NCBI RefSeq assembly: GCF_943181405.1
Contig: NZ_CALPBY010000001.1
Coordinates: 558,001-622,000, forward strand
DNA: 64,000 nt
Origin: Cellulosimicrobium sp. Marseille-Q4280
Lineage (GTDB): Bacteria > Actinomycetota > Actinomycetes > Actinomycetales > Cellulomonadaceae
Reading direction: 5' to 3'
The notes below the pieces were generated by a model that did no database searches, was not told the DNA's origin, and saw only the letters and a list, made by a program, of their open reading frames with translations. Below, piece by piece: positions 8,703-51,425 of this stretch (the first letter of the stretch is position 1; the number at the start of each line of letters is the position of its first letter). A program made the position numbers and the translations under genes.

Positions 8703-8805
8703 CCGACGCCTGCGCGGGGGCGGGGCGGGTCTACCATCCGCCGCTCGTTCCTCGCGGCTCCCGCCAGACCCGCCACGACCCGCCCCACCCCCGCTCCGGC
8801 GTCGG
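8703..8805 (+). repeat. Dispersed cruciform element, copy A
   Basis: A 29-nt left arm (8703-8731) pairs with 8777-8805 at 26 of 29 positions around a 45-nt core that begins TACCATCC. The core holds an inner stem GCCGC/GCGGC with the loop TCGTTCCTC and ends CAGACCCGCCAC. Copies B (17204), C (35954) and D (51315) share the core but not the stem sequence. It lies between the end of the ABC ATPase gene and the start of the DUF4032 gene. Confidence 0.93.
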
Positions 8806-8816
8806 CTCGTCCTGAC

Positions 8817-8876
8817 GCCGAACCCTGGGTTGTGGGGCAGAGATGGGCTCCGGTGGCGCGTAAGCCCGGGTTCGGC
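8817..8876 (+). repeat. Hairpin repeat, second family, copy E1
   Basis: Arms of the type GCCGAACCC...GGGTTCGGC enclose a loop ending GGTGGCGCG. The same design occurs at 24724-24783 (E2), with shared arm sequence and a related loop. It sits 11 bp from element A. No coding function is evident. Confidence 0.75.
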
Positions 8877-8898
8877 GGGCTTCGGGGTGGACGACGAA

Positions 8899-8930
8899 GG
8901 GCGGGCCCGACGCGGAGGTCGGACCCGCCC
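8899..8930 (-). terminator. Terminator-like hairpin after the ABC ATPase gene
   Basis: GGGCGGGCCCGAC at 8899-8911 pairs with 8918-8930 with one mismatch. On the minus strand it is followed by TTCGTCGTCC, the same tail seen after the tRNA hairpin at 16255 and, in part, after groEL. Confidence 0.55.
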
Positions 8931-8947
8931 CGTCGGCGGTGCGGAGG

Positions 8948-10072
8948 TCAGCTGAGGCGCTGGCCCGAGGCAGCCGAGAAGACGTGCGAGTTGCCCGGGC
9001 GGATCGCCACGTAGATGCGCTCGCCCTTGGTGGGGACGTTGCGCGGGTCGACGCGGACGATGACCTGGTTGTCGCCGGCACCCGAGTGGACCTCGGCCTG
9101 CGCGGCCAGCTCGCCCTTGAGGGTGCCGTAGACGAACGCGTCGGAGCCGAGCTCCTCGACGATGTTCACCTCGACGGGGAACGCGCTCTCGTTGGCCTGC
9201 GACACGACGTCGAGGGCCTCGGGACGGAAGCCGATCGTCACCTTGCCGTTGTCGGCCTCGGTGAGCTTCGCGGCCACGTCGCGCTCGAGCGGCAGGCGGG
9301 CCGGGCCGACCTCGGCGACGCCACCGTTGACGGTGAACGTACCGATGTTCATGGCCGGCGAGCCGATGAAGCCCGCGACGAACACGTTCTGCGGGGTGTC
9401 GTACATCTCGCGCGGGGTGCCGACCTGCTGGAGCAGACCGTCCTTGAGGACCGCGATGCGGTCACCCATCGTGAGGGCCTCGGTCTGGTCGTGCGTGACG
9501 TAGACCGTGGTGACGCCGAGACGACGCTGGAGCGACGCGATCTGCGTACGGGTCTGGACGCGGAGCTTGGCGTCGAGGTTCGACAGCGGCTCGTCCATGA
9601 GGAACACCTGGGGCTGGCGCACGATGGCGCGGCCCATGGCGACGCGCTGGCGCTGACCGCCGGAGAGCGCCTTCGGCTTGCGGTCCAGGTACTCGGTGAG
9701 GTCGAGGATCTTCGCGGCCTCCTCGACGCGCTGGCGGATCTCCGCCTTCGGCGTGCCGGCGATCTTCAGCGCGAAGCCCATGTTGTCCGCGACGGACATG
9801 TGCGGGTACAGCGCGTAGTTCTGGAACACCATCGCGATGTCGCGGTCCTTCGGCTGGACGTCCGTGACGTCGCGGTCGCCGATGTAGATGTTGCCCGCGT
9901 TGACGTCCTCGAGGCCCGCGAGCATGCGGAGCGAGGTCGACTTGCCGCAGCCCGAGGGGCCGACGAGGACGAGGAACTCGCCGTCCTCGATGTGCAGGTT
10001 CAGCTGGTCCACCGCGGGGCGCTCGGTCCCGGGGTAGAGCCGCGTTGCGTGGTCGTAGGTGACCGTAGCCAT
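8948..10072 (-). CDS. ugpC: Sugar ABC transporter ATP-binding protein, UgpC/MsmK/MsiK type
   Basis: This 374-residue ATPase energises carbohydrate importers at the inner face of the membrane. Walker A is GPSGCGKST, the signature is LSGGQRQRVAMGRA, Walker B is VFLMDEPLSNLDAK, and the H-loop is VTHDQTEA. A C-terminal TOBE/MalK regulatory domain fills residues ~240-374. No permease or binding protein lies nearby. In actinobacteria one such shared ATPase (MsiK) often serves several sugar transporters, so that role is likely here, but this is inference. The ATG at 10070-10072 starts MATVTYDHA. A GGAGG lies 12 nt upstream, a rather long spacing. The trehalose genes end about 210 bp upstream. Confidence 0.9.
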   Translation of the reverse strand: MATVTYDHATRLYPGTERPAVDQLNLHIEDGEFLVLVGPSGCGKSTSLRMLAGLEDVNAGNIYIGDRDVTDVQPKDRDIAMVFQNYALYPHMSVADNMGFALKIAGTPKAEIRQRVEEAAKILDLTEYLDRKPKALSGGQRQRVAMGRAIVRQPQVFLMDEPLSNLDAKLRVQTRTQIASLQRRLGVTTVYVTHDQTEALTMGDRIAVLKDGLLQQVGTPREMYDTPQNVFVAGFIGSPAMNIGTFTVNGGVAEVGPARLPLERDVAAKLTEADNGKVTIGFRPEALDVVSQANESAFPVEVNIVEELGSDAFVYGTLKGELAAQAEVHSGAGDNQVIVRVDPRNVPTKGERIYVAIRPGNSHVFSAASGQRLS

Positions 10073-10285
10073 GATGGGTACATCCCTCCACCGGCAGGTA
10101 CGTGCCGGACGATCCGTTGTGCAGTGACGTGCCACTTCGACGTAGCTGTTCGCGATGGCGGACGAGCGTGTCTTCGACGACACAAATGAAGTCGGACCCC
10201 CACGTAGACAGGGACCCGACGTCATCGTGGAGCCGATACTACCCCCGGCTGCTGAGTGCTAGGTCACACCCCGGTGCCGCCGAGG

Positions 10286-11149
10286 TCACGATCCGGTCCC
10301 GACCTCACCGGCCAGGGCGCGCGCGAGGAGGTCGAGCGCGGCGGCCAGCGTGTCGGCGTCGGGCACGCGCACCGCCGCAGCGGTCTCGCCGGGACCGACC
10401 TTGATGCCCAGGTCGTCGCCGTCGAGGATCGCCAGGGCCGTCTCGTCGGTCGTGTCGTCGCCCGCGTACAGGACGCGCGTGCGGCCGGTCGTCCCGGCGT
10501 CCTGCCCGACGTCGTCGCGCAGCCGGTCCACCGCCTCGCCCTTCGACACGGTGAGGACGGCGATCTCGACGACGTCCTTGCCGTGCATCGCGTGCAGCCC
10601 GAGGTGCTCGGCCACCGCGTCGGCCGCGGCCTCGGCCGCGAGGGTGTCCTCGGCGGAGGCGAGCCGCGTGTGCAGGACGGCGGCGCTCGGCTTGTCCTGC
10701 ACCCAGGCGCCCTCGCGCCCGGCGACCGCGGCGGCCAGGCCGGTCCGCAGCTCGGCGAGCGCGCGCTCCTGGTCGTCGGTGAGCACGAGCGGCACGGCGT
10801 CCACCCCGTGCTCGGTCACGTGCCCGGTCTCGGCGCCGTGGCTCCCGACGAGGAACGTCCCGACCGGAGGTTCCCCGCGCTCGGCGAGATCGGTGAGGTT
10901 GCGCCCCGACACGAGGGCGAGCCGCGTCGTCGTCCCCTGCAGCGCCGCCGCGAGGCGGTCCACGGCGGCGCGGGCCGCGGGCGTCATGCGCGCGGCCAGG
11001 GGGTCGTCGACGAGGGGCGCGAGCGTCCCGTCGAAGTCGAGGGCGACGAGGCGCGCGCGGGGCGGCCGGTCGCCGTCGGCCGCGAATGCGAGGACGGCCT
11101 CGGCGACGTCGGGCGGCAGCGTGACGGGGGCCGGTGCACCCTCGCTCAT
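10286..11149 (-). CDS. otsB: Trehalose-6-phosphate phosphatase
   Basis: OtsB dephosphorylates trehalose 6-phosphate to trehalose in the cytoplasm. The 287-residue protein is a HAD-superfamily phosphatase. Motif I is LVALDFDGTLAPL with the nucleophile and acid/base aspartates. Motif II is LALVSGRNL. The C-terminal motif YAGDDTTDETAL binds magnesium. The ATG at 11147-11149 overlaps the otsA stop by 4 bp, so the two genes are translationally coupled with otsA first. Confidence 0.93.
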   Translation of the reverse strand: MSEGAPAPVTLPPDVAEAVLAFAADGDRPPRARLVALDFDGTLAPLVDDPLAARMTPAARAAVDRLAAALQGTTTRLALVSGRNLTDLAERGEPPVGTFLVGSHGAETGHVTEHGVDAVPLVLTDDQERALAELRTGLAAAVAGREGAWVQDKPSAAVLHTRLASAEDTLAAEAAADAVAEHLGLHAMHGKDVVEIAVLTVSKGEAVDRLRDDVGQDAGTTGRTRVLYAGDDTTDETALAILDGDDLGIKVGPGETAAAVRVPDADTLAAALDLLARALAGEVGTGS

Positions 11150-12642
11150 GCCCGGCGCTCCACGGCGTCGCCCTGCTGACCCCGGTCGGCGGGCTCGGTG
11201 GACCCCGAGGAGCGGCGCGGCACCCGCGACGGCATGGCGGTCAGCACGCCGAGGAACGACTCCGACCACTTGGCGACGTCGTCCGTGAGGACACGGCGGC
11301 GCAGCCGGCGCATGCGCTTGCGCTGCTCGCGGTGGTCCATGTGCGCGGCCGCGACGATGATGTCCTTCATCCCGTCGATGTCGTGCGGGTTGACGAGCAG
11401 CGCGCCCGACGCGAGTTCGTCCGCGGCGCCCGTGAACTCCGACAGGACGAGGACGCCGCGGTCGTCGGAGCGGGCCGCGACGTACTCCTTGGCGACGAGG
11501 TTCATGCCGTCGCGCAGCGACGTGACGAGCATGACGTCCGCCGCGAGGTAGAGGGCGGCCATCTCCTCGGGCGGGTACGAGTGGTGCAGGTAGTGGATGG
11601 CCGCGTGCCCGATCTCGGCGTACTCGCCGTTGATGCGGCCCACGGCGCCCTCGACGTGCTCGCGCAGCTCCTGGTAGGCGTCCACGTTCTCGCGGCTCGG
11701 GCTCGCGACCTGCACGAGCGTCGCGTGCTCGACGTCGAGCCGGCCGTCCTGCAGCAGCTCGCCGTACGCCTTGATGCGGTGCCGGATGCCCTTCGTGTAG
11801 TCGAGGCGGTCGACGCCGAGGATCATGACGTCGGGGTCGCCGAGGTCCGCGCGGACCTCGCGGGCCCGCTGCTGCACCTCGGGCGTGCGCGCGAGCTCGT
11901 CGAACCGCCGCGAGTCGATGGAGATGGGGAACGCGGCGGCGCGCACGTGCCGGTCGCGCCCCTCGGCGGTGGGGACCGTGATCATCGGGCCGCGCGTGGT
12001 GTACGCGCGCAGCCTGCGGACCGCGCGGATGAAGTTCGCGGCGTCGCCCGCCCGCTGGAAGCCGACCAGGTCCGCGCCGAGGAGCCCGTCGAGGACCTGG
12101 CGCCGCCACGGGAGCTGCTGGAAGAGCTCGAGCGGGGGGAAGGGGATGTGGTTGAAGAACCCGATCCGCACGTCGGGCCGCTGCTCGCGGACCATCTGCG
12201 GCACGAGCTGGAGCTGGTAGTCGTGCACCCACACGACGGCGCCCGGCGCCGCCTGCGCGACGGCGGCGTCGGCGAAGCGCTGGTTGACGCGCCGGTACGC
12301 CTCCCACCAGGTGCGGTGGTAGGTGGGCGGCGAGATGACGTCGTGGTAGAGCGGCCAGAGCGTGTCGTTGGAGAAGCCCTCGTAGTAGCGCTCGATCTCG
12401 TCGGCGCTCAGGGTCACGGGGACGAGGCGCATGTCGTCCGCGTCGAACGGCTCGTGCGCGAGGTCCGGGGCGCCGGACCAGCCGACCCACGCGCCGTCGG
12501 ACGCCTGCATGACCGCCTCGAGAGCCGTGACCAGGCCGCCCGGCGAGCGGCTCCACGAGACGTCACCCCCGGCGTCCACCGTGAAGTCCACGGGCAGCCG
12601 GTTGGCCACGACGACGAGATCGAACCCCTCTTTGCCTGACAA
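11146..12642 (-). CDS. otsA: Trehalose-6-phosphate synthase
   Basis: OtsA (GT20) transfers glucose from a nucleotide sugar to glucose 6-phosphate. The protein has 498 residues. Family motifs are [12 protein letters not shown] and [10 protein letters not shown] at the N-terminus, [29 protein letters not shown], and the C-terminal acceptor and nucleotide site region around [17 protein letters not shown]. The start is a TTG at 12640-12642, supported by a strong AAGGAG about 8 nt upstream; no better start exists. It leads the two-gene otsA-otsB operon. Trehalose made here would act as a compatible solute or reserve. Confidence 0.94.
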
Positions 12643-12760
12643 CGGAATTCTCCTTGTGCTTCGATGGAACGCGGATGACGCGTCCCAGGGTAGACGGACG
12701 GTCGCGCACGGCGCGGGTCGACACCGAGCGTCCCGGGCCGCCGGACGTCGCGTCTGCGGC

Positions 12761-12772
12761 TACCTTGTCACC
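12761..12772 (+). promoter_or_regulatory. -10 box (TACCTT) before the Ser/Thr kinase gene
   Basis: TACCTT at 12761-12766 is followed after 6 nt by the ATG at 12773 with no Shine-Dalgarno sequence, which suggests a leaderless mRNA. Confidence 0.45.
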
Positions 12773-14488
12773 ATGGAGGAGTCCACGCAGCGCGTCGCAC
12801 CGACGGCGGGCGGACGCGGGCCGGCCCCCGGCAGCGAGGTCGGCGGCTACCTCGTCGGCGCGCGCCTCGGCTCGGGCGCCATGGGGACGGTGCACAGCGC
12901 GCACGACGGCGGCGGCAACCTCGTCGCGATCAAGTTCCTCCACGCGCACGTCGACGTCGACGCGGCGGCGCAGGGCCGCGAGCGGTTGCGGCGCGAGGCG
13001 CTGGCCCTGCAGCGGCTGCGACACCCCGCCGTCGCGCAGATCCTCGACGTCGAGCTCGACGGCCCGGACGCGTTCATCGTCACCGAGCTCGTCGACGGAC
13101 CGACGCTCGAGGACGAGGTCGCGGACGGCGGCCCGCTCGACGCCTGGGACCTGTACGAGCTCGCGGACCAGCTCGCCGCGGCGCTCGAGGCCGTCCACGC
13201 GGCGGGCGTCATCCACCGCGACCTCAAGCCGAGCAACGTCCTCGTGGCGTCGCGCGGTCCCGTGCTCATCGACTTCGGCATCGCGCAGGGTCTCGAGGAC
13301 GCGCGGGTGACGTCGACCGGACTGGTCATGGGCACGCCCGGCTACCTCGCGCCCGAGCTGCTCGAGGGCGCGGCGCCGAGCGCGGACACCGACTGGTGGG
13401 GCTGGGCCGCGCTGCTCGCCTACGCGGCCACGGGCCGGGCCCCGTTCGGCGTGCGGCCGACCGACGTCGTGCTCGCCCGGGCCCGCAGCGGACGACCCGA
13501 CCTCGCCGGCCTCGGGCCCGTCACCGCACAGGCGCTCGCGGGCGCGCTGCACGCCGACCCCTCCCGGCGTCTCGGCCCGACCGAGGTCGTCGCGGCGCTG
13601 CGCCGGGCCGCCGACACGGGCGACGCCCCCACCCAGCTCGTCGGGCCGCCGACCGGCCCGACGCAGGTCGTGGCACCCGCCGCCGCCGTCGCGGGTGCCG
13701 CTGCGGGTGCCGCGTGGGCTGCTGCGCCCGCGGTCGTGCCGCCACCCCTGCCCGCGTCCCAGACGCAGGTGAACGACGGCCGTACCGTCGCCGTGCCCGC
13801 GGGTGGCCCGGCCGACCCCGACCTGCTCGACGACCTCGGGGCGCCCCCCTCCGACGAGGCCGGCGAGCCGCTGTACGTGCGGCCCGTGCCGGCGTCCCGG
13901 CGCACGGCGCTCATGCTCCTCGCGGTGCCCCTCGTCCTCCTGGGGGCGATGTTCCCCGGGCTCGCGTTCGGCGCCCTCACGCTGTTCGTCGTCCTCGCGC
14001 GCGTCGTCGGCGTCACCACGGAGTCCCTGCACACGCGCCGTGAGCGGCGTGGCGTCCAGCGCAGCGACACGGCGCGCTCCGTCGCCGCGTCGCCCTGGTA
14101 CGTCCTCCGCGCGATCCTCGGCGCGCTCCCGTCGCTGCTCGTCGCGGCGTGCGCGGGAGTGCTGGTCGTCGTGGCGGGGTGGTGGCTCCTCGAGGCGGAC
14201 CGCTGGGTCGTCGTCGAGGGCCCCGACGGCGGCAACCCGCCCGTCGTGACGACCGTCCTGCTCGTGGTCGCGATGCTCGCGGCGGTCGTGCTCGCGTGGG
14301 TCGGCCCGCTCACGTACCTCACGCGCTACGGGACGCGCACCGCGCTCGCCCGGGTCGCCCCCGGGCGCACCGGGACTCTCGTCCTCCTCGGCCTCGGGAT
14401 CGCCCTCACCGTCGTGTGCGTGGTGCTGCTCGCGTCGGACCGCCCCGTCGAGTGGTGGCCGTTCCCGGGCCCGCCGGACCTGCGCTGA
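12773..14488 (+). CDS. Membrane-anchored serine/threonine protein kinase
   Basis: The 571-residue protein has a Hanks-type kinase domain in residues ~25-280. It shows the Gly loop LGSGAMGTVH, the lysine in VAIKFLH, the catalytic loop IHRDLKPSN, DFG and an APE motif. A Pro/Ala/Gln-rich juxtamembrane region (~290-400) follows, then four or five hydrophobic segments up to the C-terminus. Unlike PknB there are no PASTA repeats, so the sensing part is probably the membrane region itself. The ATG at 12773 follows a TACCTT box by 6 nt. It is divergent from otsA, with no direct evidence of a link to trehalose synthesis. Confidence 0.92.
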   Translation: MEESTQRVAPTAGGRGPAPGSEVGGYLVGARLGSGAMGTVHSAHDGGGNLVAIKFLHAHVDVDAAAQGRERLRREALALQRLRHPAVAQILDVELDGPDAFIVTELVDGPTLEDEVADGGPLDAWDLYELADQLAAALEAVHAAGVIHRDLKPSNVLVASRGPVLIDFGIAQGLEDARVTSTGLVMGTPGYLAPELLEGAAPSADTDWWGWAALLAYAATGRAPFGVRPTDVVLARARSGRPDLAGLGPVTAQALAGALHADPSRRLGPTEVVAALRRAADTGDAPTQLVGPPTGPTQVVAPAAAVAGAAAGAAWAAAPAVVPPPLPASQTQVNDGRTVAVPAGGPADPDLLDDLGAPPSDEAGEPLYVRPVPASRRTALMLLAVPLVLLGAMFPGLAFGALTLFVVLARVVGVTTESLHTRRERRGVQRSDTARSVAASPWYVLRAILGALPSLLVAACAGVLVVVAGWWLLEADRWVVVEGPDGGNPPVVTTVLLVVAMLAAVVLAWVGPLTYLTRYGTRTALARVAPGRTGTLVLLGLGIALTVVCVVLLASDRPVEWWPFPGPPDLR

Positions 14489-14547
14489 ACCCCGGGGCGG
14501 GTGACCGGCGTCCGGTCGGCACCCAGGCCCGTCCCAGGCGGCGTGTG

Positions 14548-14560
14548 TAGTCTGGGCGCC
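14548..14560 (+). promoter_or_regulatory. -10 box (TAGTCT) before the small membrane protein gene
   Basis: TAGTCT at 14548-14553 lies 7 nt before the GTG at 14561 and no ribosome site is present. This is consistent with a leaderless transcript. Confidence 0.45.
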
Positions 14561-15139
14561 GTGCTCCGGACGACGGTCACGCGCGGCCTCCCGCGCGGCG
14601 CGACGCGGGCGTCCGTCATGCCCGCGACCGGGCCGTTCCTCGGCCCCGTCGTCCTGCTCCTCACCGTCGCCGCAGCCCTGCTGACGACCCTCGCGGACCG
14701 CGGGTTCGCCGTCGTGCACCAGTGCGTGACCGTCCCCGGCGTCTGGGGGATCGCGGGGATGCACCTCGCGCTCGTCCACGAGACGCCCGACTGCCCGTCC
14801 GGGACGGCGCTCGGCGGTGACGGCGCCACGATGGTGACCGTGCTGGGCGTGCTCGCCGTGCCCGTCCTGCTGGGCCACGCGGTCGCCGCGCTCGTGGCCT
14901 GGGGCGTCTCGGCGCGCGTGCGCCGTGCGCACGCGCGGGCCCGCGAGCTGTCCGCCGGGACACGGCGTGTCCTGGCCGCACTCCTCGCCCGTGTCCTCGG
15001 CGCCTCGCAGGGACGGAGGGTCGTCGGGCCGCGTGCCCAGCGGCTGCCGCGGCCCGACGTCGTCCCCGCCGCGCTGCACCACCTCGCCGACGCCGTGGTG
15101 CGCACCCGGCGCGGACCCCCCGTGGCCGCCCTCGCCTGA
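14561..15139 (+). CDS. Small membrane protein of unknown function
   Basis: I do not recognise this 192-residue protein. It has two hydrophobic segments, around residues 28-45 (FLGPVVLLLTVAAALLTTLA) and 92-118. Between them is a probably extracytoplasmic loop containing two cysteines (HQC and PDC) that could form a disulphide. The C-terminal ~70 residues are Arg/Ala-rich and likely cytoplasmic. It lies between a kinase with a membrane tail and a DsbA-like oxidoreductase, so the paired cysteines may be meaningful. GC-codon use resembles the neighbours. Confidence 0.65.
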   Translation: MLRTTVTRGLPRGATRASVMPATGPFLGPVVLLLTVAAALLTTLADRGFAVVHQCVTVPGVWGIAGMHLALVHETPDCPSGTALGGDGATMVTVLGVLAVPVLLGHAVAALVAWGVSARVRRAHARARELSAGTRRVLAALLARVLGASQGRRVVGPRAQRLPRPDVVPAALHHLADAVVRTRRGPPVAALA

Positions 15140-15226
15140 CGGCTCCCGCACGCCGAGCCCGACGGCGGCACGCCCCGCCCTCCGTCGTCCCCGCACGACG
15201 ACCGCACCGCACCCGAAGGACCCACC

Positions 15227-16084: not shown

Positions 16085-16098
16085 CGTCCGACCGGGTC

Positions 16099-16137
16099 GC
16101 GCCGGACGAGCGGGTATCCTGCTCTCTCGTCCGGCGC
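16099..16137. promoter_or_regulatory. 12-bp perfect inverted repeat spanning the tRNA -10 region
   Basis: GCGCCGGACGAG at 16099-16110 is exactly complementary to 16126-16137. The 15-nt spacer holds TATCCT (16115-16120), a likely -10 box of the tRNA gene. The hairpin could terminate the upstream gene, or it could be an operator over the tRNA promoter. Confidence 0.6.
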
Positions 16138-16147
16138 GAGCCGGTGC

Positions 16148-16220: not shown

Positions 16221-16228
16221 CCGCGCGA

Positions 16229-16255
16229 GCCCCCGACCTCCACGAGGTCGGGGGC
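16229..16255. terminator. Terminator hairpin after tRNA-Thr
   Basis: GCCCCCGACCTC at 16229-16240 pairs perfectly with 16244-16255 around a 3-nt loop. It is followed by TTCGTCGTCC. It can serve both the tRNA and the convergent SGNH hydrolase gene. Confidence 0.75.
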
Positions 16256-16265
16256 TTCGTCGTCC

Positions 16266-17203: not shown

Positions 17204-17282
17204 GGGACGCGCGCGCGGTCTACCATCCGCCGCTCGTTCCTCGCGGCTCCCGCCAGACCCACCACGACCGCGCGCGCGTCCC
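17204..17282 (+). repeat. Dispersed cruciform element, copy B
   Basis: A perfect 17-bp stem (17204-17220 with 17266-17282) of CG-alternating sequence encloses the 45-nt core TACCATCC...ACCCACCAC. The stem sequence is unrelated to those of copies A, C and D. GGTGG/CCACC at 17194 and 17285 may extend the stem. It fills much of the 300-bp space between the SGNH hydrolase start and the ung stop. Confidence 0.95.
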
Positions 17283-25646: not shown

Positions 25647-27365
<1,719 letters not shown>

Positions 27366-34657: not shown

Positions 34658-35920
34658 GTGACACCTTCACGCGCCACGACCCGCCTCGCCCCGGCAGCCG
34701 CCCTCGTCGCCCTCACGCTCGTGCTCACCGCGTGCGGCGCGCGGACCGAGAGCGGCGACACCACCGGCGAGACCACCGCCGCCGAGAGCTGCGTCGACAC
34801 CTCGGGCGACACCGTCAAGATCGGCTTCCTCAACTCGCTGTCCGGCACCATGGCCATCTCCGAGCAGACCGTCGCCGACTCGCTCGCCCTCGCGGCCGAC
34901 GAGATCAACGCCGACGGCGGCGTCCTCGGCAAGCAGCTCGAGATCGTCCAGGAGGACGGCCAGTCCGAGCCCACGGTCTTCGCCGAGAAGGCCGAGAAGC
35001 TCATCACGAGCGACTGCGTCGCCGCCGTGTTCGGCGGCTGGACCTCGGCGTCGCGCAAGGCCATGCTCCCCGTGTTCGAGGCGCAGGACTCGCTGCTGTT
35101 CTACCCCGTCCAGTACGAGGGCCTCGAGTCGTCGCCGAACATCTTCTACACCGGCGCGACGACCAACCAGCAGATCGTCCCCGCGCTCGACTACCTCAAG
35201 GAGCAGGGCACCGAGTCGATCTTCCTCGTCGGCTCCGACTACGTCTTCCCGCGCACCGCGAACAAGATCATCAACGCCTACGCCGAGGCCAACGGCATGG
35301 AGGTCCTGGGCGAGGAGTACGCGCCGCTCGGACACACCGACTTCTCGACGATCGTCAACAAGGTGAAGTCCGCCGGCGCCGACGCGGTGTTCAACACGCT
35401 CAACGGCGACTCCAACGTCGCGTTCTTCAAGGAGTACAAGAACGCGGGCCTCGGCCCGGACGCGATGCCGGTCGTGTCCGTGTCCATCGCGGAGGAGGAG
35501 GTCGGCGGCATCGGCGTCGAGAACGTCGAGGGCCAGCTCACCGCCTGGAACTACTACCAGACCATCGACAGCCCCGAGAACGCCACGTTCGTCGAGGCCT
35601 TCCAGGCCGAGTACGGCGACGACCGCGTGACGTCCGACCCGATGGAGGCCGCGTACACGTCGCTGCACCTCTGGAAGGGCATGGTCGAGAAGGCCGAGTC
35701 GTTCGACGTCGCCGACGTCCAGGAGGCAGCGGGCGGCGTCACGTTCGACGCGCCGGAGGGCTCGGTGACCGTGAACGGCGACAACCACCACATCGCCAAG
35801 ACCGCGCTCATCGGGAAGATCGGCGCCGACGGCCTCATCCACACCGAGTGGAGCTCCGAGGAGCCCATCGAGCCCGACCCGTTCCTCGAGGGCTACGACT
35901 GGGCCGAGGGCCTCTCCTGA
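34658..35920 (+). CDS. urtA: Urea ABC transporter substrate-binding lipoprotein
   Basis: UrtA captures urea outside the membrane. The 420-residue protein has a signal peptide with the lipobox LVLTAC near residue 25. A Thr/Glu-rich linker and then a periplasmic-binding type I fold follow. Motifs typical of UrtA are [14 protein letters not shown] and [19 protein letters not shown]. The GTG at 34658 has GAAAGGA at 8 nt. It leads urtABCDE, but a hairpin element (copy C) separates it from urtB, so it may be made in excess over the permeases. Confidence 0.95.
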
Positions 35921-35953: not shown

Positions 35954-36054
35954 GGGGGCCGGGGGTGCGCGCGCCGGGTCTACCATCCGCCCGCTCGTTC
36001 CTCGCGGGCTCCCGCCAGACCCACCACGACCCGGCGCACGCACCCCCGGCCCCC
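35954..36054 (+). repeat. Dispersed cruciform element, copy C
   Basis: A 27-nt stem (35954-35980 with 36028-36054) has one mismatch and encloses a 47-nt core. Relative to copies A and B, the inner stem has one extra C on the left and one extra G on the right, keeping it paired (GCCCGC/GCGGGC). It lies in the 203-bp space between urtA and urtB. Confidence 0.95.
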
Positions 36055-44482: not shown

Positions 44483-44508
44483 GCCGCAGCCCACCGCGAC
44501 CGCCGCCG

Positions 44509-44802
44509 CTAGCGGGCCACGAACAGGCGCGACGCCTGGGCCTCGGCGTCCGCGTACGTCTGCGCGGCCGACCCGAGGGCGGCCGTGATCGCGTCGAGCG
44601 CGGACTCGACCTGGACCTGCGTGCCCTGCCACTGGGCCATCACGCCCGTGAAGGCGTCCGCGGCGCCGCCGCGCCACGACGCCTGCAGGTCCGTGAGGTG
44701 CCGCATCATCGCTGCGACCTCCGTGCGGATCGCCGTCACCGACCCGCTCACGGCCGTGCTGGCCTGCGCGACGCGCGCGCTGTCGACCTCGTACCTGCTC
44801 AT
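44509..44802 (-). CDS. WXG100 (ESAT-6-like) family protein
   Basis: The 97-residue helical-hairpin protein has the WXG turn as LQASWRGGAADAF near residue 43 and ends SRLFVAR. WXG100 proteins are exported by type VII secretion or form the N-terminal part of toxins. No ESX genes or partner WXG protein are adjacent, so export partners must lie elsewhere. GGAGG lies just before the ATG at 44800-44802. Confidence 0.9.
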   Translation of the reverse strand: MSRYEVDSARVAQASTAVSGSVTAIRTEVAAMMRHLTDLQASWRGGAADAFTGVMAQWQGTQVQVESALDAITAALGSAAQTYADAEAQASRLFVAR

Positions 44803-44932
44803 CGTCGTCCTCCGTCGTGTCCGGCGGCTCGTCAGGGCCGCGTGGCCCGGGCGTCCGCCGGGCTCGTCGAGGACGCTAGGGGAGCTGGTCGGTGGCCGGG
44901 CTCGAGGAGGCGGTGCGCCTGTGGACGGCCGC

Positions 44933-45664
44933 TCAGGCCGTGGAGGGTGTGGACGGCGCGGACCGTTGCGCCAGCTTGATCTGCTCCTTGCGCAAGCGCT
45001 GGAGCTCGGCATCGAGGTTCTGCCGAGCGGGCTCCTCCCAGGCCGTGCCGAGCGGGCTGGAGAACAGCGACCGCCGCTCGAGCAGCTTGGTGAGGATGGC
45101 CATGCGCGCCCGGACGTAGTCCTCGGGCGGGATGTGCGCGTACTCGTCGCGCACGTCCTTGAGGTATTCCTTGTAGCGCTGGGGCTCCGCGGCCAGCACC
45201 GCCAGGTCGGCGTCGCACAGCACGGCGCAGTCGAAGTCCGTGGGGTCGGGTGCGTGCCGCACGAGGGCGTTGACGAGGTGGGCGACGCGGCGCGCCGCGT
45301 CGTCGGGGACGCCGAGCTCCGTCAGCTCGGCCAGCGCGAGCGCCGCGCTCGCCGTCTCGTCCTCGCCGCCCTTGTTCGCGTACGTCGCGCGGCCCTTCGC
45401 GTCGAAGACCGCGCCGTGGTACCAGGCGGCGAGCCGGACGAGGTCGGGGTCGTGGGTCTCCTGGGAGAGCTCGTCGACCCGTCCGAGCACGTCCGCGAGG
45501 TGGCGCAGGTTGTGGAAGTTGCGACCCGGGGTGTCCCAGCGGTCGAGGAGTCCTTGCCCGACGCCGCGGATCGCATCGTCCGACGCGGTCGCTCCGGCGC
45601 CCCTGGCGCTGCGGACGAACGAGGAGAGGAACCACTGCGGTGCGTCGATGCTCGTGACGCCCAT
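44933..45664 (-). CDS. HD-domain-like predicted phosphohydrolase
   Basis: The 243-residue protein resembles a group of predicted metal-dependent HD phosphohydrolases. HNLRHLADVLGRVDEL supplies the first histidine region. RLAAWYHGAVF stands where many homologues have an HD pair, so the aspartate appears replaced by Gly, and VLCDADLAVLA supplies a later aspartate. Loss of the HD aspartate could mean altered metal use. The ATG at 45662-45664 has AAGG upstream. An upstream ATG at 45797-45799 would add 45 low-complexity residues. Confidence 0.72.
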   Translation of the reverse strand: MGVTSIDAPQWFLSSFVRSARGAGATASDDAIRGVGQGLLDRWDTPGRNFHNLRHLADVLGRVDELSQETHDPDLVRLAAWYHGAVFDAKGRATYANKGGEDETASAALALAELTELGVPDDAARRVAHLVNALVRHAPDPTDFDCAVLCDADLAVLAAEPQRYKEYLKDVRDEYAHIPPEDYVRARMAILTKLLERRSLFSSPLGTAWEEPARQNLDAELQRLRKEQIKLAQRSAPSTPSTA

Positions 45665-45822
45665 GGAATCAGCCTTCTTCGACGACGAGGGAGGAGCGGC
45701 ACCGGTCGGGGAGAGCCGACCGGCAGACCCGACGTCGGCAGCGTCCTTGCCGGGCCTTCGGTCCCAGCCTAGGTCGATCCACCGACGACGACGCGCCATC
45801 GTAGCCCGTGCCCGACGGCGCG

Positions 45823-45928
45823 GTGTCAGGACGAGAGGTCACCGGGGTGACCTCTCGTCCTGACACGAGGCGACGGGGCGCCGTGTGTCAGGGGCACAGG
45901 TCACCCGGGTGACCCGTCGCGCTGACAG
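45823..45928. repeat. Pair of GTGTCAGG...CCTGACAC palindromes, intergenic
   Basis: The first is a perfect 21-bp inverted repeat, 45823-45843 with 45846-45866. The second has GTGTCAG/CTGACAG at 45885 and 45922 around the 16-bp palindrome GGTCACCCGGGTGACC (45899-45914). It lies between the HD-domain gene and the end of the sensor kinase gene, and it matches the pair inside ureD. Confidence 0.93.
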
Positions 45929-45935
45929 GGTGTGG

Positions 45936-47621
45936 TCAGGACGCGAGCGGGAGCTCCACACGGACGGTCAGCCCGCCGTCGTCGTCGGTCGAGCGCACCG
46001 AGACGTGGCCGCGGTGCGCGGCGACGATCGCCGCCACGATCGCGAGCCCGAGGCCCGAGCCGCCCGACGCACGGTTGCGGGACGAGTCCGCCCGGTAGAA
46101 GCGCTCGAACACGCGGTCCTCCTGCCCGGCGGGCACACCGGGGCCGTGGTCGCGGACCTCGAGCACCGCCGTCGCACCGCGAGCCGTGCCGTGCGGAGCG
46201 CGCTGGACGGTGCCGTCCGTCGGGAGCGGGGGCGCCTCGACGACGCCGAGGGCGATCTGCGCGGCCGTGCCGCGCGGCGTGTGCCGCGCGACGTTCCCGA
46301 CGAGGTTGGCCAGCACCTGTCGCAGCCGGTCCTCGTCGCCGACGACGCGCAGCGGCTCCGGCGCGACCGACCCCGCCGCGAGCCCCACGACCTGCACGTC
46401 CCGCGACGGGTCGAGCGCGTGCAGGTCCTGCGCGGAGTCCTTGGCGAGCGCGGCGAGGTCGACGGGCTCGTGCCGCAGGGGCCGCCCCTCGTCGAGCCGC
46501 GCGAGCGCGAGCAGGTCGTTGACCAGCGCCCCCATGCGCGTCGCCGAGTCCTCGATGCGGCCCATCGTGTCGTCGACCTTCTCGGGCGTGTCGAGCGCTC
46601 CCATGCGGTACAGCTCGCCGTACCCGCGGATCGTCGCGAGCGGCGTGCGCAGCTCGTGGCTCGCGTCGGACACGAACGTCCGCATGCGCGCCTCCGACGC
46701 CTCCTGCACGGCGAAGGCCTCCTCGATCTGCGACAGCATCGCGTTGAGCGACGTCGCGAGCGAGCCGACCTCGGTCGTGGGCGGTGCCGGCCGCACGCGT
46801 CGGGCGAGGTCGCCCCCCGCGATCCCGGCGGCGGTCTCCTCGATCTCCCGCAGCGGACGCAGCGCGCGCTGCACCGCCATGTACGCGACCGCTCCGCCGA
46901 TGAGCGCGATCCCGAGCGCGGACAGCGCGAGCGTGCGGCCCAGCACCTTGACCGTCTCGTGGATCCCCGTGAGAGGGAGCGCGACGAACGCGGTTCCCTG
47001 GACCTCGCCCGTCAGCTCGCTGCGGATGAAGAAGGGGACGACCCGCCACTTCGCGGGGTCGGACCCGCCGCTCGACGACACGGTGAACGGATCACCGGCG
47101 CGATCCCTCACCTCGGGGTCGGACATCGCCGGGATGTCCGGCTCGCCGTACCGCGAGACGGTCTGCGGCCAGCCGAGCGCGCTGCTGTTCCCGTCCCGGT
47201 CCCGGGCGACCACGTAGTAGTCGCTCGGGAGGACGCTGCGGACCGGCCCCTGGTTGAGGGTGGACTCGGCGACCTCGCTGGCCGAGCGCTCGAGCTGGTC
47301 GTCCACCTGGTCGACGAGGTACTGCGACACGACGGTGGTCGTCAGGAGCGCGGCGATCCCCTGCCCGGCGGCGAGCAGCAGCACGATGATCCCGACGAGC
47401 CGCGCCCGCAGCGGCACGCGTGCGAGCCAGCTCCAGCCCTCGGTAGGGACGCGCCGGCCGAACGGCCGCTGCGCCGTCGGGCCCGGGTCGCTCGTGCCCC
47501 CGGCCGCCGCGTCGCCGGACGTGCCCGACGCCGTGTCACCGGCAGGGCGCACGGCGTCGCCCGGGGGAGAGGGCGGCACCGCGCGCGCGTCGGTCGCCGT
47601 GCGGTCGGACCCTGCGCTCAT
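45936..47621 (-). CDS. Sensor histidine kinase, PhoR-like
   Basis: The 561-residue kinase has a Pro/Gly/Thr-rich cytoplasmic N-terminus of ~65 residues. It has two transmembrane helices (about 73-95 and 220-245), with an extracytoplasmic sensor region of ~125 residues between. A HAMP domain, the phospho-acceptor H-box FVSDASHELRTPLATIRGY, an N-box NLVGNVARHTPRG, and G-boxes RDHGPGVP and GGSGLGLAIV follow. It overlaps the response regulator gene upstream by 4 bp. The signal sensed is unknown. Confidence 0.94.
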   Translation of the reverse strand: MSAGSDRTATDARAVPPSPPGDAVRPAGDTASGTSGDAAAGGTSDPGPTAQRPFGRRVPTEGWSWLARVPLRARLVGIIVLLLAAGQGIAALLTTTVVSQYLVDQVDDQLERSASEVAESTLNQGPVRSVLPSDYYVVARDRDGNSSALGWPQTVSRYGEPDIPAMSDPEVRDRAGDPFTVSSSGGSDPAKWRVVPFFIRSELTGEVQGTAFVALPLTGIHETVKVLGRTLALSALGIALIGGAVAYMAVQRALRPLREIEETAAGIAGGDLARRVRPAPPTTEVGSLATSLNAMLSQIEEAFAVQEASEARMRTFVSDASHELRTPLATIRGYGELYRMGALDTPEKVDDTMGRIEDSATRMGALVNDLLALARLDEGRPLRHEPVDLAALAKDSAQDLHALDPSRDVQVVGLAAGSVAPEPLRVVGDEDRLRQVLANLVGNVARHTPRGTAAQIALGVVEAPPLPTDGTVQRAPHGTARGATAVLEVRDHGPGVPAGQEDRVFERFYRADSSRNRASGGSGLGLAIVAAIVAAHRGHVSVRSTDDDGGLTVRVELPLAS

Positions 47622-48361
47622 GAGGACGACGGCGCGCCCGGCGGCTGCCGCAGCAGGTATCCGACGCCGCGCTTGGTGTGGATGAGCGGAGGCAGGGCGA
47701 CGGGCGCTCCGTCGGGGCCGGGGACGGTGAGGTTGTCGATCTTGCGCCGCAGGTAGGAGATGTAGGACTCGACGATGTTCGCGTCGCCACCCCAGTCGTA
47801 CTGCCACACGTGGTCGAGGATCTGCGCCTTGGAGAGCACGCGGCCGGCGTTGAGCATGAGGTAGCGCAGGAGCTTGAACTCGGTGGGGGACAGGTCGACG
47901 TCGATCCCGGCGCGGCGGACCTCGTGCGAGTCCTCGTCCATCTCCAGGTCGGCGAAGCGCAGCACGGCGTCGTCGACGGGCTCGGCGTGGGTCCGGCGCA
48001 GGACCGCGCGGATCCGCGCCACGACCTCCTCGAGGCTGAACGGCTTCGTCACGTAGTCGTCGCCGCCGACCGTCAGGCCGGTCACCTTGTCGCGCGTGTC
48101 GTCCTTCGCGGTGAGGAACACGACGGGCGTGCGCTGGCCCTTCTCGCGCATGCGGCGCGTGACCGTGAAGCCGTCCATGTCGGGGAGCATCACGTCGAGC
48201 ACCACGAGGTCGGGCTCGACGTCGCGTACGAGCTTGAGCGCGCTCTGGCCGTCCGCGGCGGCGTGCACCTCGAACCCCGCGAACCGCAGGGACGTGGCCA
48301 GGAGCTCGCGGATGTTCGGCTCGTCGTCGACGACGACGAGGCGTGCCTCGGGAGTGCTCAT
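47618..48361 (-). CDS. OmpR/PhoP-family response regulator
   Basis: The 247-residue regulator has a receiver domain with the acidic pair VVVDDEPNI, phospho-acceptor Asp in LVVLDVMLPDMDG, conserved Thr in VFLTAKD and Lys in YVTKPFSLEEVVARI. A C-terminal winged helix with the recognition helix in GGDANIVESYISYLRRKID follows. It resembles mycobacterial PhoP. It is translated first and overlaps the histidine kinase gene by 4 bp. Confidence 0.95.
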   Translation of the reverse strand: MSTPEARLVVVDDEPNIRELLATSLRFAGFEVHAAADGQSALKLVRDVEPDLVVLDVMLPDMDGFTVTRRMREKGQRTPVVFLTAKDDTRDKVTGLTVGGDDYVTKPFSLEEVVARIRAVLRRTHAEPVDDAVLRFADLEMDEDSHEVRRAGIDVDLSPTEFKLLRYLMLNAGRVLSKAQILDHVWQYDWGGDANIVESYISYLRRKIDNLTVPGPDGAPVALPPLIHTKRGVGYLLRQPPGAPSSS

Positions 48362-48454
48362 GGATCCAGTGTGCGCGCGTCCTCTGGGAGCTGCCTGGGA
48401 GACCCCTCCACCGGTGCCGGCGCGGTCGTGGGCGGTGGCGTGCAGGATGGCGGG

Positions 48455-49702
48455 GTGCGCATCACCGTGGAGCAGCGGCGTCGTCTGCTCGTGGCCCGTC
48501 AGCTCGCCCTCGGCGTCGACCACCCCGGCCTGCCCGCCGCGCGCTCGGTCGAGGACGTGGTCGGGCGGGTCCTCGCGCTGCACGCCACCGACGCGCCGAG
48601 CGTGTACCTGTCGGTCCTCGCGCGCGTGCCCGACCTCGTGCTCGCGGACGTCCGCGACGCGCTGTTCGGGCGCCGCACCCTCGTCAAGGTGCTCGCGATG
48701 CGTCGGACGATGTTCGTCGTACGGCGCGAGCTGGTCCCGGTGGTGCACGCCGCAGCGGGGGCGGCCGTCGGGCGGCGGCTGCGGACCCGCCTGCTCAAGG
48801 AGCTCGCGACCCTGCCGACCGACCCGCCCGTCGAGGACGCCGACGCGTTCCTCGCGGAGGCCGAGCGTCAGGTGCACGCCGCGCTCGCGGAGCACGGGCC
48901 GCTGGACGGCGCGAGCCTCTCCCGGGCCGCGCCCGCGCTCCGCACCGCGTTCCTGCCGACCACCACGAAGTCGTGGGACGTGCGCCGGACGGCGACGAGC
49001 CAGCTCCTGTCGATGCTCTCTGCCGAGGGCGTGGTCGTGCGCGGCGAGCCGCGCGGCTCGTGGTCGTCGAACCGGCACGTGTGGACGCCGATGGACGACT
49101 GGTTCCCCGGCGGTATGCCCGAGCTCGACGAGCCGACGGCGCGCGTCGAGCTCGCGCGCGCCTGGCTCGCCGTGTTCGGGCCGGCGACCGAGAAGGACCT
49201 GCAGTGGTGGACGGGGTGGAACCTGCGGGACACGCGCGCGGCGCTCGGCGCTCTCGACGTGCGCGAGGTCGACCTCGAGGTGGGCGCGCGCGGCGCGACG
49301 GGAGAGGCGGCGGTCGCGCGCGGCGTCGTGCTCGCGCAGGCGCTCGACGACGGGTCGCTGGACCTGCCGGAGGACACGGCCGAGGGCGTCGTGTCGCTCG
49401 TGCCCTCGCTCGACCCGACGACGATGGGGTGGTACGTGCGCGACTGGTACCTCGGGCCGCACCGCGACCAGCTCTTCGACACGATCGGCAACGCGGGCGC
49501 GACCGTCTGGTGGGAGGGGCGGATCGTCGGCGCGTGGACCGTGCGGCGCGGCGGGGAGCCCGCGTACCGCCTGCTCGAGGACGTCGGAGCGGACGCGGAG
49601 GCTGCCGTCCAGGCCGAGGCGGCACGCATCGCCGCCCTCCTCGGCGGGGACGGCACGACCGCGTCGTTCCCCACGCCTCTGTACCGCGAGCTGCAGGCCT
49701 GA
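48455..49702 (+). CDS. Winged-helix DNA-binding domain protein (AlkZ-like HTH_42)
   Basis: The 415-residue protein begins RITVEQRRRLLVARQLAL and resembles the HTH_42 superfamily that includes the DNA-crosslink glycosylase AlkZ. A QxQ-like catalytic motif is expected near the N-terminus. Here the region reads RVLALHATDAPSVYLS, where AlkZ-type enzymes have Q, so glycosylase activity is doubtful. The C-terminal part has WWEGRIVGAWTVRRGG, typical of the family. The GTG at 48455 is chosen because homology starts there. It is divergent from the response regulator. Confidence 0.8.
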   Translation: MRITVEQRRRLLVARQLALGVDHPGLPAARSVEDVVGRVLALHATDAPSVYLSVLARVPDLVLADVRDALFGRRTLVKVLAMRRTMFVVRRELVPVVHAAAGAAVGRRLRTRLLKELATLPTDPPVEDADAFLAEAERQVHAALAEHGPLDGASLSRAAPALRTAFLPTTTKSWDVRRTATSQLLSMLSAEGVVVRGEPRGSWSSNRHVWTPMDDWFPGGMPELDEPTARVELARAWLAVFGPATEKDLQWWTGWNLRDTRAALGALDVREVDLEVGARGATGEAAVARGVVLAQALDDGSLDLPEDTAEGVVSLVPSLDPTTMGWYVRDWYLGPHRDQLFDTIGNAGATVWWEGRIVGAWTVRRGGEPAYRLLEDVGADAEAAVQAEAARIAALLGGDGTTASFPTPLYRELQA

Positions 49703-49723
49703 GCGCGCAGCCCGCGGCACGCG

Positions 49724-50326
49724 TCAGAGGTAGCGCAGCGGGTCGAAGTCGGCGAGCGGGATGATCCGCACGCGGGGCAGCATCGTCGTGAACGCGCCGG
49801 CGTGGTCCTCGAGGTCGAACACCTCGAGCCCGCGCGCGGTGAGCTCCGAGAGCCGCACGTTGACGAACTCGCGGAACGCGAGCACGCCCACGCGCCGGTC
49901 GGGGTCGCCCAGGAGGTTCTCGACCTGCGGCAGGAAGTCGCCGTCGTGGCTCGCGAGGAGGACGTCGCCCGGCCGGTCGCGCAGGGCGTCGAGCGTGCGC
50001 TGGATGCCGATGTCCACGACCTTCTCGCTGCCCGACCCCGCGAGCGGGATGGGCCGGTAGCCCATCGCGAGCAGCGCCTGCACGAACGACATCGGCATCT
50101 GCCCGGATGACGCGTTGAGGAAGAACAGCGGCGTGACGTCCTGACCCCACGCCTGACGCGCGAAGTCGACGATCCGGTCCCAGCGCGGACGCTCCTCGGG
50201 CGCCGGGCGGTGCCCGAGGACGTTCATGCCGAGCGTCGCGTCGATGTTCTCGCCGTCCACGACGAGGTACGTGCGGCGCGGCTGCTCGACGACGGGCGGG
50301 GGCGCGACGATCTGGGGGTCGGACAT
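49724..50326 (-). CDS. NYN/PIN-like domain protein
   Basis: The 200-residue protein has the NYN nuclease-like fold. Acidic residues of the predicted metal site lie in YLVVDGENIDATLG, EKVVDIGIQRTLDAL and VLLASHDGDFLPQVENL. NYN domains are PIN-related RNases, and the family function in actinobacteria is not established. It is convergent with the winged-helix gene and divergent from the amidotransferase. TAGGCT (minus strand, 50333-50338) lies 6 nt before its ATG, so the mRNA may be leaderless. Confidence 0.87.
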   Translation of the reverse strand: MSDPQIVAPPPVVEQPRRTYLVVDGENIDATLGMNVLGHRPAPEERPRWDRIVDFARQAWGQDVTPLFFLNASSGQMPMSFVQALLAMGYRPIPLAGSGSEKVVDIGIQRTLDALRDRPGDVLLASHDGDFLPQVENLLGDPDRRVGVLAFREFVNVRLSELTARGLEVFDLEDHAGAFTTMLPRVRIIPLADFDPLRYL

Positions 50327-50413
50327 GCGGTCAGCCTAGCCGTGACCTGCGTGCCAGGTCCCGGCGGGCGGCCGTGCGACGTCGCGGTTTGCGTCCTCCG
50401 GGGGGCCACTGGG

Positions 50414-50427
50414 TACGGTCGTCCTTC
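50414..50427 (+). promoter_or_regulatory. -10 box (TACGGT) before the amidotransferase gene
   Basis: TACGGT at 50414-50419 lies 8 nt before the GTG at 50428 without a ribosome site. Confidence 0.4.
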
Positions 50428-51231
50428 GTGACCACGTTCGACACCTCGCCCGGCTCCGCCGGAGCGCCGTCCGGCACCGCCGGAGCCCCGCTCGACCTCG
50501 AGCGCCCCGCCGTGCGCGTGACGGTCGTCCAGAGCTCGCCGGACGTCACGCTCGACACCTACGCCGACCACCTCGACGCGGACCTGCACGTCGTGCGCGC
50601 CTACGACGGCGAGCCCGTCCCCACGGCGAGCGAGGTCGGTGACGGGCTGGTCGTGCTCGGCGGCCACATGTCGGCGTACGACGACGCCCGCGCACCCTGG
50701 CTCCCCGCGGTGCGGGAGCTGCTGCTCGGGGCGGCGACGTCCGGGGTCCCCACGCTCGGCATCTGCCTCGGCGCCCAGCTCCTCGCCGTCGCCGGTGGCG
50801 GACGGGTCGAGGTGGCCGCGCCCCCGGGCCGCGAGGTCGGCGCGACGCGCGTGTTCTGGCGGCACGGCGCCGAGGCCGACCCCGTCCTCGGGGCCCTCGC
50901 CGCCGGCGGCGCGCCGGTCCGCTGGGCTGCGAGCGCGCACGGCGACGCCGTCGTCGACCTGCCGGCCGACGCGGTGTGGCTCGCGTCGTCGAACATGTAT
51001 CCCTACCAGGCGTTCCGCCTCGGCTCGGCGCTCGGCGTCCAGTTCCACCCCGAGGTCTCCTGGGCGAGCCTCGCCGGGTGGTGCGACCGCTACGACGACG
51101 TCGACACCGCGGCCGTGCTCGCTGGGTTCGACGAGCACGCCACCGAGATCGCGGACGGCGGACGCCGCCTCGCTGCCGCGTTCGTCGCCGAGGTGCGTAC
51201 CGCCGTCGAGCGGCGGTTCGTCACCGCCTGA
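50428..51231 (+). CDS. Class I glutamine amidotransferase (GMP-synthase-like)
   Basis: The 267-residue protein is a free-standing GATase1 domain. The nucleophile is Cys113 in LGICLGAQLLA, and the catalytic His-Glu pair is in GVQFHPEVSW. An oxyanion-type LGGHMSAYDD lies earlier. Such stand-alone proteins hydrolyse glutamine or gamma-glutamyl compounds, and no ATP-pyrophosphatase partner is adjacent. The N-terminal ~25 residues are Ser/Gly/Ala-rich. The start is a GTG. Confidence 0.88.
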   Translation: MTTFDTSPGSAGAPSGTAGAPLDLERPAVRVTVVQSSPDVTLDTYADHLDADLHVVRAYDGEPVPTASEVGDGLVVLGGHMSAYDDARAPWLPAVRELLLGAATSGVPTLGICLGAQLLAVAGGGRVEVAAPPGREVGATRVFWRHGAEADPVLGALAAGGAPVRWAASAHGDAVVDLPADAVWLASSNMYPYQAFRLGSALGVQFHPEVSWASLAGWCDRYDDVDTAAVLAGFDEHATEIADGGRRLAAAFVAEVRTAVERRFVTA

Positions 51232-51240
51232 GGGTGAGCC

Positions 51241-51296
51241 GCTGAGGCGCTGAGCCGCTGAGCCGCTGGGGCGCTGAGGCGCTGAGGCGCTGAGGC
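51241..51296. repeat. Octamer tandem array GCTGAGGC/GCTGAGCC, seven copies
   Basis: Seven contiguous 8-bp units run from 51241 to 51296 with variation at two positions. They start 10 bp after the amidotransferase stop. The 505-bp gap 51232-51736 holds this array, element D and a 38-bp array, with no gene. Confidence 0.9.
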
Positions 51297-51314
51297 GGGG
51301 CGGCGTCGGTCCGC

Positions 51315-51425
51315 GGTCGACGGCTCCACGAGGAAGGGGCCGGGTCTACGATCCGCCCGCTCGTCCCTCGCGGGCTCCCGCCAGCCCCGCCACGACCCGG
51401 CCCCTTCCTCGCTCCGCCGTCGACC
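51315..51425 (+). repeat. Dispersed cruciform element, copy D
   Basis: A 32-nt stem (51315-51346 with 51394-51425) pairs at 28 positions, with one 4-nt internal loop. The 47-nt core has the same extended inner stem as copy C (GCCCGC/GCGGGC) and a few substitutions (TACGATCC, TCGTCCCTC, CAGCCCCGCCAC). It lies between two convergent genes. Confidence 0.93.

Follow-up and report, generated by a model that had tools for sequence, protein, structure and literature searches.

We describe here a dispersed hairpin element that occurs four times (copies A to D) in a 64,000-nucleotide stretch of the actinobacterium Cellulosimicrobium sp. Marseille-Q4280, hereafter called the window (positions 558001-622000 of contig NZ_CALPBY010000001.1, our contig C1, in a 4.86-Mb, 12-contig genome; G+C 74.6%). 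The element is probably a non-autonomous, hairpin-forming interspersed repeat of the kind known from repetitive extragenic palindromic sequences (REPs) and Rickettsia palindromic elements (RPEs). From the outside in, it consists of two arms, the 5' unpaired segment TACCATCCG, an inner stem of mostly 5-7 bp that carries the 9-nt loop TCGTYCCTC, the segment TCCCGCCAGRCCCRCCAC, and the right arm. The conserved bases are the unpaired ones, namely TACCATCCG, the loop TCGTYCCTC and TCCCGCCAGRCCCRCCAC, whereas the paired positions vary yet stay complementary. The outer arms have a median length of 25 bp (range 12-36) in a set of 114 rows that includes some loci twice, and the inner part measures 42-63 nt. 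Other genomes, contigs, loci and genera are referred to by our own G, C, L and g numbers.

The four copies in the window, with their scores for covariance model R2 and with neighbouring genes as called by our own hexamer-based gene caller, are:

8703..8805, + strand: copy A, left arm 8703-8731, core 8732-8776, right arm 8777-8805; 83.9 bits; the flanking genes, of the DUF4032 and MalK-type ABC kinds, are both called on the - strand, and the core strand is antisense to them.
17204..17282, + strand: copy B, left arm 17204-17220, core 17221-17265, right arm 17266-17282; 82.2 bits; the flanking genes, for a GDSL lipase and a UDG-family protein, are both called on the - strand, and the core strand is antisense to them.
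35954..36054, + strand: copy C, left arm 35954-35980, core 35981-36027, right arm 36028-36054; 92.8 bits; the flanking genes, for a periplasmic binding protein (stop at 35920) and a BPD_transp_2 permease, are both on the + strand, the copy being sense.
51315..51425, + strand: copy D, left arm 51315-51346, core 51347-51393, right arm 51394-51425; 81.8 bits; between a convergent GATase gene (+) and PspA gene (-).

These copies and the pairing of their arms had been reported in an earlier note on this stretch, and both observations were confirmed: 26 of 29 arm positions pair in copy A and 28 of 32 in copy D by count, and 17 of 17 in copy B and 26 of 27 in copy C in the RNAfold folds. The hairpins span 79-111 nt with cores of 45-47 nt, and RNAfold predicts for all four a long outer helix, an inner stem-loop within the core, and unpaired C-rich segments. 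When the sense strand of copy A is folded within its flanks, the minimum-energy fold holds just the inner part of the outer helix and the centroid shows the helix (z -2.05); copy C in its flanks folds as drawn (z -3.19). A scan of the window for arms with at least 15 of 16 Watson-Crick pairs around a 45-49 nt spacer found copies A to D and one unrelated palindrome at 45852. Model R2, which was built from 46 rows including copies B, C and D but without A, was run on the window with filters off and returned exactly copies A to D (E 1.4e-18 to 4.4e-16), the next match having an E-value of 0.25.

The conserved core and covarying arms that the earlier note had described were borne out by two alignments, A1 with 26 copies and A2 with 46 diverse copies. 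In A2, 95.9% of 666 cells were paired, and 149 cells were altered on both sides as compared with none on one side; sliding the partner by 1-3 columns lowered the pairing to 31-43%. The corresponding figures for A1 were 108 cells altered on both sides and 1 on one side. The view that the arms are fully copy-specific holds in part: they do vary, but the innermost GGGTC/GACCC is often common, and some copies outside the window have entire 16-bp arms in common. Likewise, the paired insertion noted in the inner stem is real, and is one among many inner-stem variants (about 28 usable of the 30 listed, with L082 and L274 being parsing failures). An early alignment with a fixed core boundary had left out 10 of 61 rows due to a register shift. 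The core boundary was mobile in the arm pairing table, where rows were kept if at least 12 of 16 positions and the first three were paired, and the percentage of paired positions in that table is inflated because of this filter. An alternative pairing, GGGTCT/AGACCC, is impossible where the inner arms are different, as in L002 and L010, judged by eye. In one copy (G000 C7:78027; L043 1490-1720) the right part is present in tandem with a 65-nt period, and GCCAGACCCGCCACGA occurs three times.

RNA helices under selection normally change via G-U pairs. In a set of 97 copies, in which the loci entered twice among the 114 rows are merged, the 1552 arm cells (16 pairs per copy) comprised 1506 Watson-Crick pairs, 5 GU, 17 CA and 24 other mispairs, a CA cell being equivalent to GU on the opposite strand. 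Counted by distinct context, there were 12 CA, 5 GU and 24 other mispairs, which is a mild lean to the opposite strand. The inner stems contained 0 GU, 4 CA and 4 other mispairs in 177 cells, and a small control of 8 distinct tRNAs from the fetched loci contained 166 Watson-Crick, 10 GU and 0 CA pairs out of 176. The helices of the element therefore do not represent ordinary RNA covariation, since G-U pairs are almost absent from them (5/1552 versus 10/176 in the local tRNAs). Either the helices are kept at the DNA level, or the hairpin must act from both strands, or only a near-perfect stability suffices. Frequent GT pairing in REP stems is cited in PMC3733652 as support for an RNA role, and the near-absence of GT pairs distinguishes the element from REPs.

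The genome of the window contains 47 copies at E<0.02, and other Cellulosimicrobium genomes contain 58 (G088), 34 (G098) and 22 (G049). An exact 27-base core pattern was found in 12 stretches of the public genome collection, all from Cellulosimicrobium. The wider searches scored at most the best 35 candidates per genome at the level of the family, and at most 10 (model R1) or 13 (R2) at the level of the class, so that the following counts are lower bounds. At least 36 of 121 genomes in the family search carry the element, including 11 of 11 in the genus and at least 25 of 110 outside it; eight of these 25 have a single weak match each (E 1e-5 to 1e-3), mostly unread. In the class, with the genome of the window included, at least 8 of 394 genomes have matches with R1 and at least 7 of 394 with R2. 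Reading of the matches confirmed the core in G398 (which belongs to another family; 92 and 72 bits), G498, G328 and G337, whereas the core was absent in G228 and G345 and partial in G343. A few relatives are present in other actinobacterial families. A short-core variant, which consists of TACC and GCCAGRCCCACCAC with a different inner hairpin, lies before rbfA in genera g23 and g25. The earlier note had proposed to ask whether further copies exist and whether their arms are complementary, and this test, as run by the genome and family searches, favours a family. Site A was occupied in 4 of the 16 genus genomes that could be resolved (17 looked at); by reading, the 12 genomes without the element there seem to have a different neighbouring gene and are not clean empty sites. 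Copy C, which alone was searched for carriage by phages or plasmids, had no match in 72,556 plasmid and 50,697 phage records, although records like its own genome may be missing from these.

All four window copies have the core on the same strand, for which a replication-oriented role had been considered. Neither idea stands at the level of the genome: 30 copies are on the + strand and 17 on the - strand (15 versus 4 on C1 alone), and there was no orientation pattern about any possible origin in three chromosomes, where the best leading/lagging split over all origins was equalled in 153 (G098), 208 (G088) and 361 (G049) of 1000 strand shuffles. A replication-oriented motif was therefore rejected in these three chromosomes; for C1, with its 15 versus 4 copies, no origin is known.

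The copies lie mainly downstream of genes, in tandem or convergent gaps, which is a placement of the REP type. Among the 31 copies of the window's genome that are located in gaps with both neighbours called, 15 are sense in tandem gaps, 5 are antisense in tandem gaps, 11 are convergent and none is divergent; of the remaining 16, five have one neighbour in view and 11 lie inside called open reading frames (ORFs). The background gaps of this genome (n=213, at least 60 nt, from two 260-kb stretches) are 140 tandem, 47 divergent and 26 convergent. A mixed set of 85 matches from several genomes included 24 sense and 14 antisense tandem, 27 convergent, 13 in-ORF and 4 one-neighbour cases. The distance from stop codon to hairpin, which the earlier note had suggested checking, is 90 nt or less in 26 of 45 cases in the window's genome, with a median of 84. 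The genes next to the copies are unrelated. The element matched no Rfam 15 family, either in the window at gathering scores or, for six loci, at E-values up to 5, and a riboswitch or regulon RNA was rejected on account of the unrelated neighbours and the lack of an Rfam match. Tracts of at least 6 T in the 12 nt after the stem were found in 3 of the 114 rows (mean 2.57 T versus 1.63 expected), and a scan of window positions 8500-9100 revealed no intrinsic terminator. Given these rare T-tracts, the empty scan and the position of copy A behind another hairpin, we rejected an intrinsic terminator.

Several junctions carry the element recurrently, and we name their genes from reading of the proteins. 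At 30 loci between infB and rbfA, the long core is present in G060, G044, G007 and G032 and the short core in G059, G043 and G023; three loci (L201 from the window's genome, L218 and L219) could not be resolved. The copy at C2:85221-85314 of the window's genome lies 101 nt ahead of the rbfA match. The other 20 of the 30 gaps (L192-L221) contain a simple long hairpin after infB and no element, and the arm sequence of this hairpin varies among genera. The element may also accompany a simple gene-end hairpin, as in G007 and G032 at infB and at copy A. Of 30 nrdE-nrdF loci, 8 carry the long core and 1 the short core, and three (from the window's genome, G040 and G056) could not be resolved, while the element is found between kdpA and kdpB in L094 and L097. 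At all three junctions the core strand is the sense strand. The g24 infB-rbfA sequences prompted the idea that the arms arise by duplication of a palindromic target; this was dropped, as by eye neither copy B nor copy D has arms that seem self-palindromic.

Insertion in frame into unrelated proteins, which is characteristic of RPEs, was also found, with 11 of the 47 copies of the window's genome lying inside called ORFs. One case is a TlpA-NHL protein with the element in frame in 4 of 30 homologues (G000, G032, G023 and G059) and in none of the other 26. The latter include G007 and G049, from the genus of G000, and G043, from the genus of G023, and G043 retains a piece that resembles the right arm. 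Within the ORF, 4 paired changes separate the arms of G000 from those of G023; in two of them the left-hand change is synonymous and the right-hand one replaces Thr by Ala. LigD of G000 and G007 shows 3 paired and 3 mispaired changes, and a protein that we labelled 'RecB-like' by reading, where a family search gives just RNase_H_2, shows 8 paired changes and 1 mispaired between G000 and G044. By coordinate reckoning, Pfam domains lie on either side of the insert in LigD, the TlpA-NHL protein, a permease-ABC fusion and biotin carboxylase; the same holds for a DNA polymerase III alpha, where two inverted copies are present, for a P-type ATPase and for a GntR-aminotransferase regulator. In the branched-chain permease and MMPL the copy is part of a protein tail, the RNase_H_2 case is at a contig edge, and in the in-ORF set L161 sits at an ORF end and L069 at a contig edge. 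Several in-ORF copies are thus located in interdomain linkers, much like RPEs. Different genes read the core in different frames and, because of this, there is no single conserved peptide, unlike in RPEs.

Identical hairpins are present at separate loci within one genome (10 copies in G098, 6 in G088 and 4 in G065, all fetched for their equal scores). In these bursts the outer flanks are variable in a mosaic-like manner and the hairpin shows little or no variation, a pattern that suggests exchange between copies. Burst copies among L073-L121 (G065, G088, G098, G049 and G118) are preceded by units of about 20-26 nt that resemble CGAGGTAGAGCCGTGGTC, often in tandem, and these units constitute a second repeat family. 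L106 and L110 (G098, 4.01 and 4.59 Mb) have their left flank in common and, at an identical offset, a called left gene, and their right sides differ, which suggests recombination or duplication ending at the element. Presence or absence at the same site differs between species. Between species, 14 fixed-site comparisons, which are not independent and together comprise 266 pair comparisons, showed paired changes in 29. Between strains G098 and G112, which are 98.8-99.4% identical in the main aligned blocks, 15 of 17 G112 hairpins could be aligned, and one G112 hairpin is precisely missing from G098, between two CGCCCTG repeats.

A literature search yielded no paper that we recognised as describing the element, and our claim reaches no further than that search. 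As described in PMC3733652, REPs are dispersed hairpins of 20-40 bp with a GTAG or CGTC tag, located downstream of genes between tandem or convergent ORFs and in some cases inside genes, and often accompanied by a REP-associated tyrosine transposase (RAYT). The element shares this placement with REPs and with bacterial interspersed mosaic elements (BIMEs), but its hairpins are longer (79-111 nt), GT pairs are nearly absent, and RAYT was found in 0 of 17 genus genomes. RPEs are, according to PMC10969869, palindromic and dispersed sequences of about 150 bp that occur in frame in unrelated proteins. The present element is likewise palindromic, dispersed and in frame in unrelated proteins, a comparison made by description; it differs in belonging to another phylum than Rickettsia and in having arms that vary between copies. 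Lastly, the hairpins that follow actinobacterial genes such as infB are also long, G+C-rich and right behind the stop codon, but they have short simple loops and no conserved core, and the element can co-occur with one.

We favour a repeat that spreads because its dispersal, its bursts and its patchy presence fit one. The hairpin of the putative repeat would end up at mRNA 3' ends. The invariance of the unpaired bases, together with the freedom of the helices, suggests that the element's reader recognises the folded strand, and this reader could be either a copying enzyme or a host RNA-binding factor. Recognition and copying of the element would thus act on the folded strand by way of its unpaired bases, and copies that have ceased to fold would drop out of the spreading population. 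The arms might change in pairs through selection on folding, replacement of whole hairpins from other copies, or template switching between arms. After a gene, the element would be transcribed to give a very stable hairpin at the mRNA 3' end or operon junction, which could block 3'-5' exonucleases or attenuate read-through. Such a hairpin would explain the location at gene ends and the rarity between divergent genes. A gene-end function, be it a rival of the spreading repeat or its by-product, is in our judgement less likely than the repeat itself. In Escherichia coli a REP reportedly stabilises malE mRNA. More speculatively, the element may be an old actinobacterial mobile element without RAYT or target-site duplication (TSD), recognised as a folded single strand purely via its invariant unpaired bases, with helices that are hence rewritable in pairs, and spreading to gene ends and in frame to protein linkers by an undescribed replication mechanism; we put this forward tentatively, as a possibility of limited weight.

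Several observations weigh against a spreading repeat. RAYT (Y1_Tnp, PF01797), the candidate partner proposed in the earlier note, was detected in none of the 17 genus genomes, although the control detects PF01797 in 5 of 14 reference genomes, and no mobilising enzyme was identified. TSDs were not above chance: the mean longest shared word at the hairpin ends, as set by our own pairing rule, was 4.14 versus 4.10 after shuffling, and 71 of 200 shuffles were as high (n=114 rows). Nowhere did we observe a clean gain at a site that was empty and untouched, and the polymorphism between G098 and G112 reads as a loss, because G098 retains the outer flanks of the element. In the main helix of the 10 orthologous G098/G112 pairs with both flanks at least 90% identical there were 2 single-sided and no paired changes (a third single-sided change falls in a less certain pair), and one of two hairpins was mispaired in 23 of the 266 fixed-site comparisons, 6 of these cells stemming from the G007 infB-rbfA row, which is out of register. 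Among five measures of covariation applied to A2, one (the number of pair types) was not above shuffles (293/500), and 3 of the 85 mixed-set matches lie between divergent genes. Moreover, a host function under selection could account equally well for the occurrence at operon junctions in several genera. The earlier note had stated that the structure is either under selection or made by the mechanism of spread. The covariation behind this statement is real but, as single-sided arm mutations exist between close strains, it does not favour the mechanism of spread over selection.

The foremost alternative, to which we grant a minor though not negligible chance, is a selected host cis-element: a hairpin at mRNA 3' ends or operon junctions that acts as stabiliser, attenuator or bidirectional terminator, with a core bound by a conserved actinobacterial factor, and that is kept by selection and not by mobility. 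The short distances to stop codons (90 nt or less in 26 of 45, median 84) and the absence of divergent sites (0 of 31) fit this idea, as do the sense excess in tandem gaps (15 versus 5 in the window's genome, 24 versus 14 in the mixed set), the sense orientation at infB-rbfA, nrdE-nrdF and kdpA-kdpB in several genera, and the position of copy C between binding-protein and permease genes. In addition, the infB-rbfA copies of G000, G007 and G032 are alike in the core with flanks that do not look alignable by eye, and 20 of 30 infB-rbfA gaps hold a simple hairpin in its stead. However, the gene upstream of copy A is already followed by another hairpin ahead of the element, and T-tracts are rare (3/114) even though their mean exceeds the expected value. 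Furthermore, copies occur in ORFs and in both orientations, G-U pairs are nearly absent, and identical sets are present at different loci.

Template-switch (quasipalindrome) correction, a mechanism described in PMC8794818, might by itself make and keep the arms complementary, with no need for selection on folding or for mobility. That two-sided changes far exceed one-sided wobble changes and that a paired indel of one base distinguishes G011 from G043 at nrdE-nrdF would agree with this, but the changes between strains of about 99% identity are single-sided with no paired ones, and the conserved unpaired bases and the dispersal are left unexplained. Template switching can supply paired changes; that it suffices alone is very improbable. 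A classical miniature inverted-repeat transposable element (MITE), that is, a DNA-transposon remnant with terminal inverted repeats (TIRs) moved by a transposase in trans, is similar to the element in its inverted repeats, small size, multiple copies and sets of identical copies, but is highly unlikely, since the arms differ between copies and subfamilies and there is hence no common TIR, TSDs are not above chance, copy C is unmatched among plasmid and phage records, and no partner transposase was found (PF01797 looked for).

As the identity of this family lies only in its unpaired bases, most relatives would escape a search with stem sequences, and finding them takes a covariance model. Should the elements be mobile, they would make a clean system in which to study the copying of a folded strand in the absence of RAYT; should they be selected, they mark where genes end throughout a family of Actinobacteria. 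With in-frame copies in LigD, a DNA polymerase III alpha and other proteins, the idea that palindromic repeats are a source of protein linkers would extend beyond Rickettsia, the single such case in the literature consulted.

Two further features of the window concern other sequences. Adjacent near-perfect palindromes with TGTCAG...CTGACA-like ends are located at 45826-45867 and about 45886-45926, between two - strand genes; they do not match the element and look like operators or terminators. Finally, Rfam matches to msiK and 5_ureB_sRNA were obtained on the - strand at 10076-10135 and 25802-26091.

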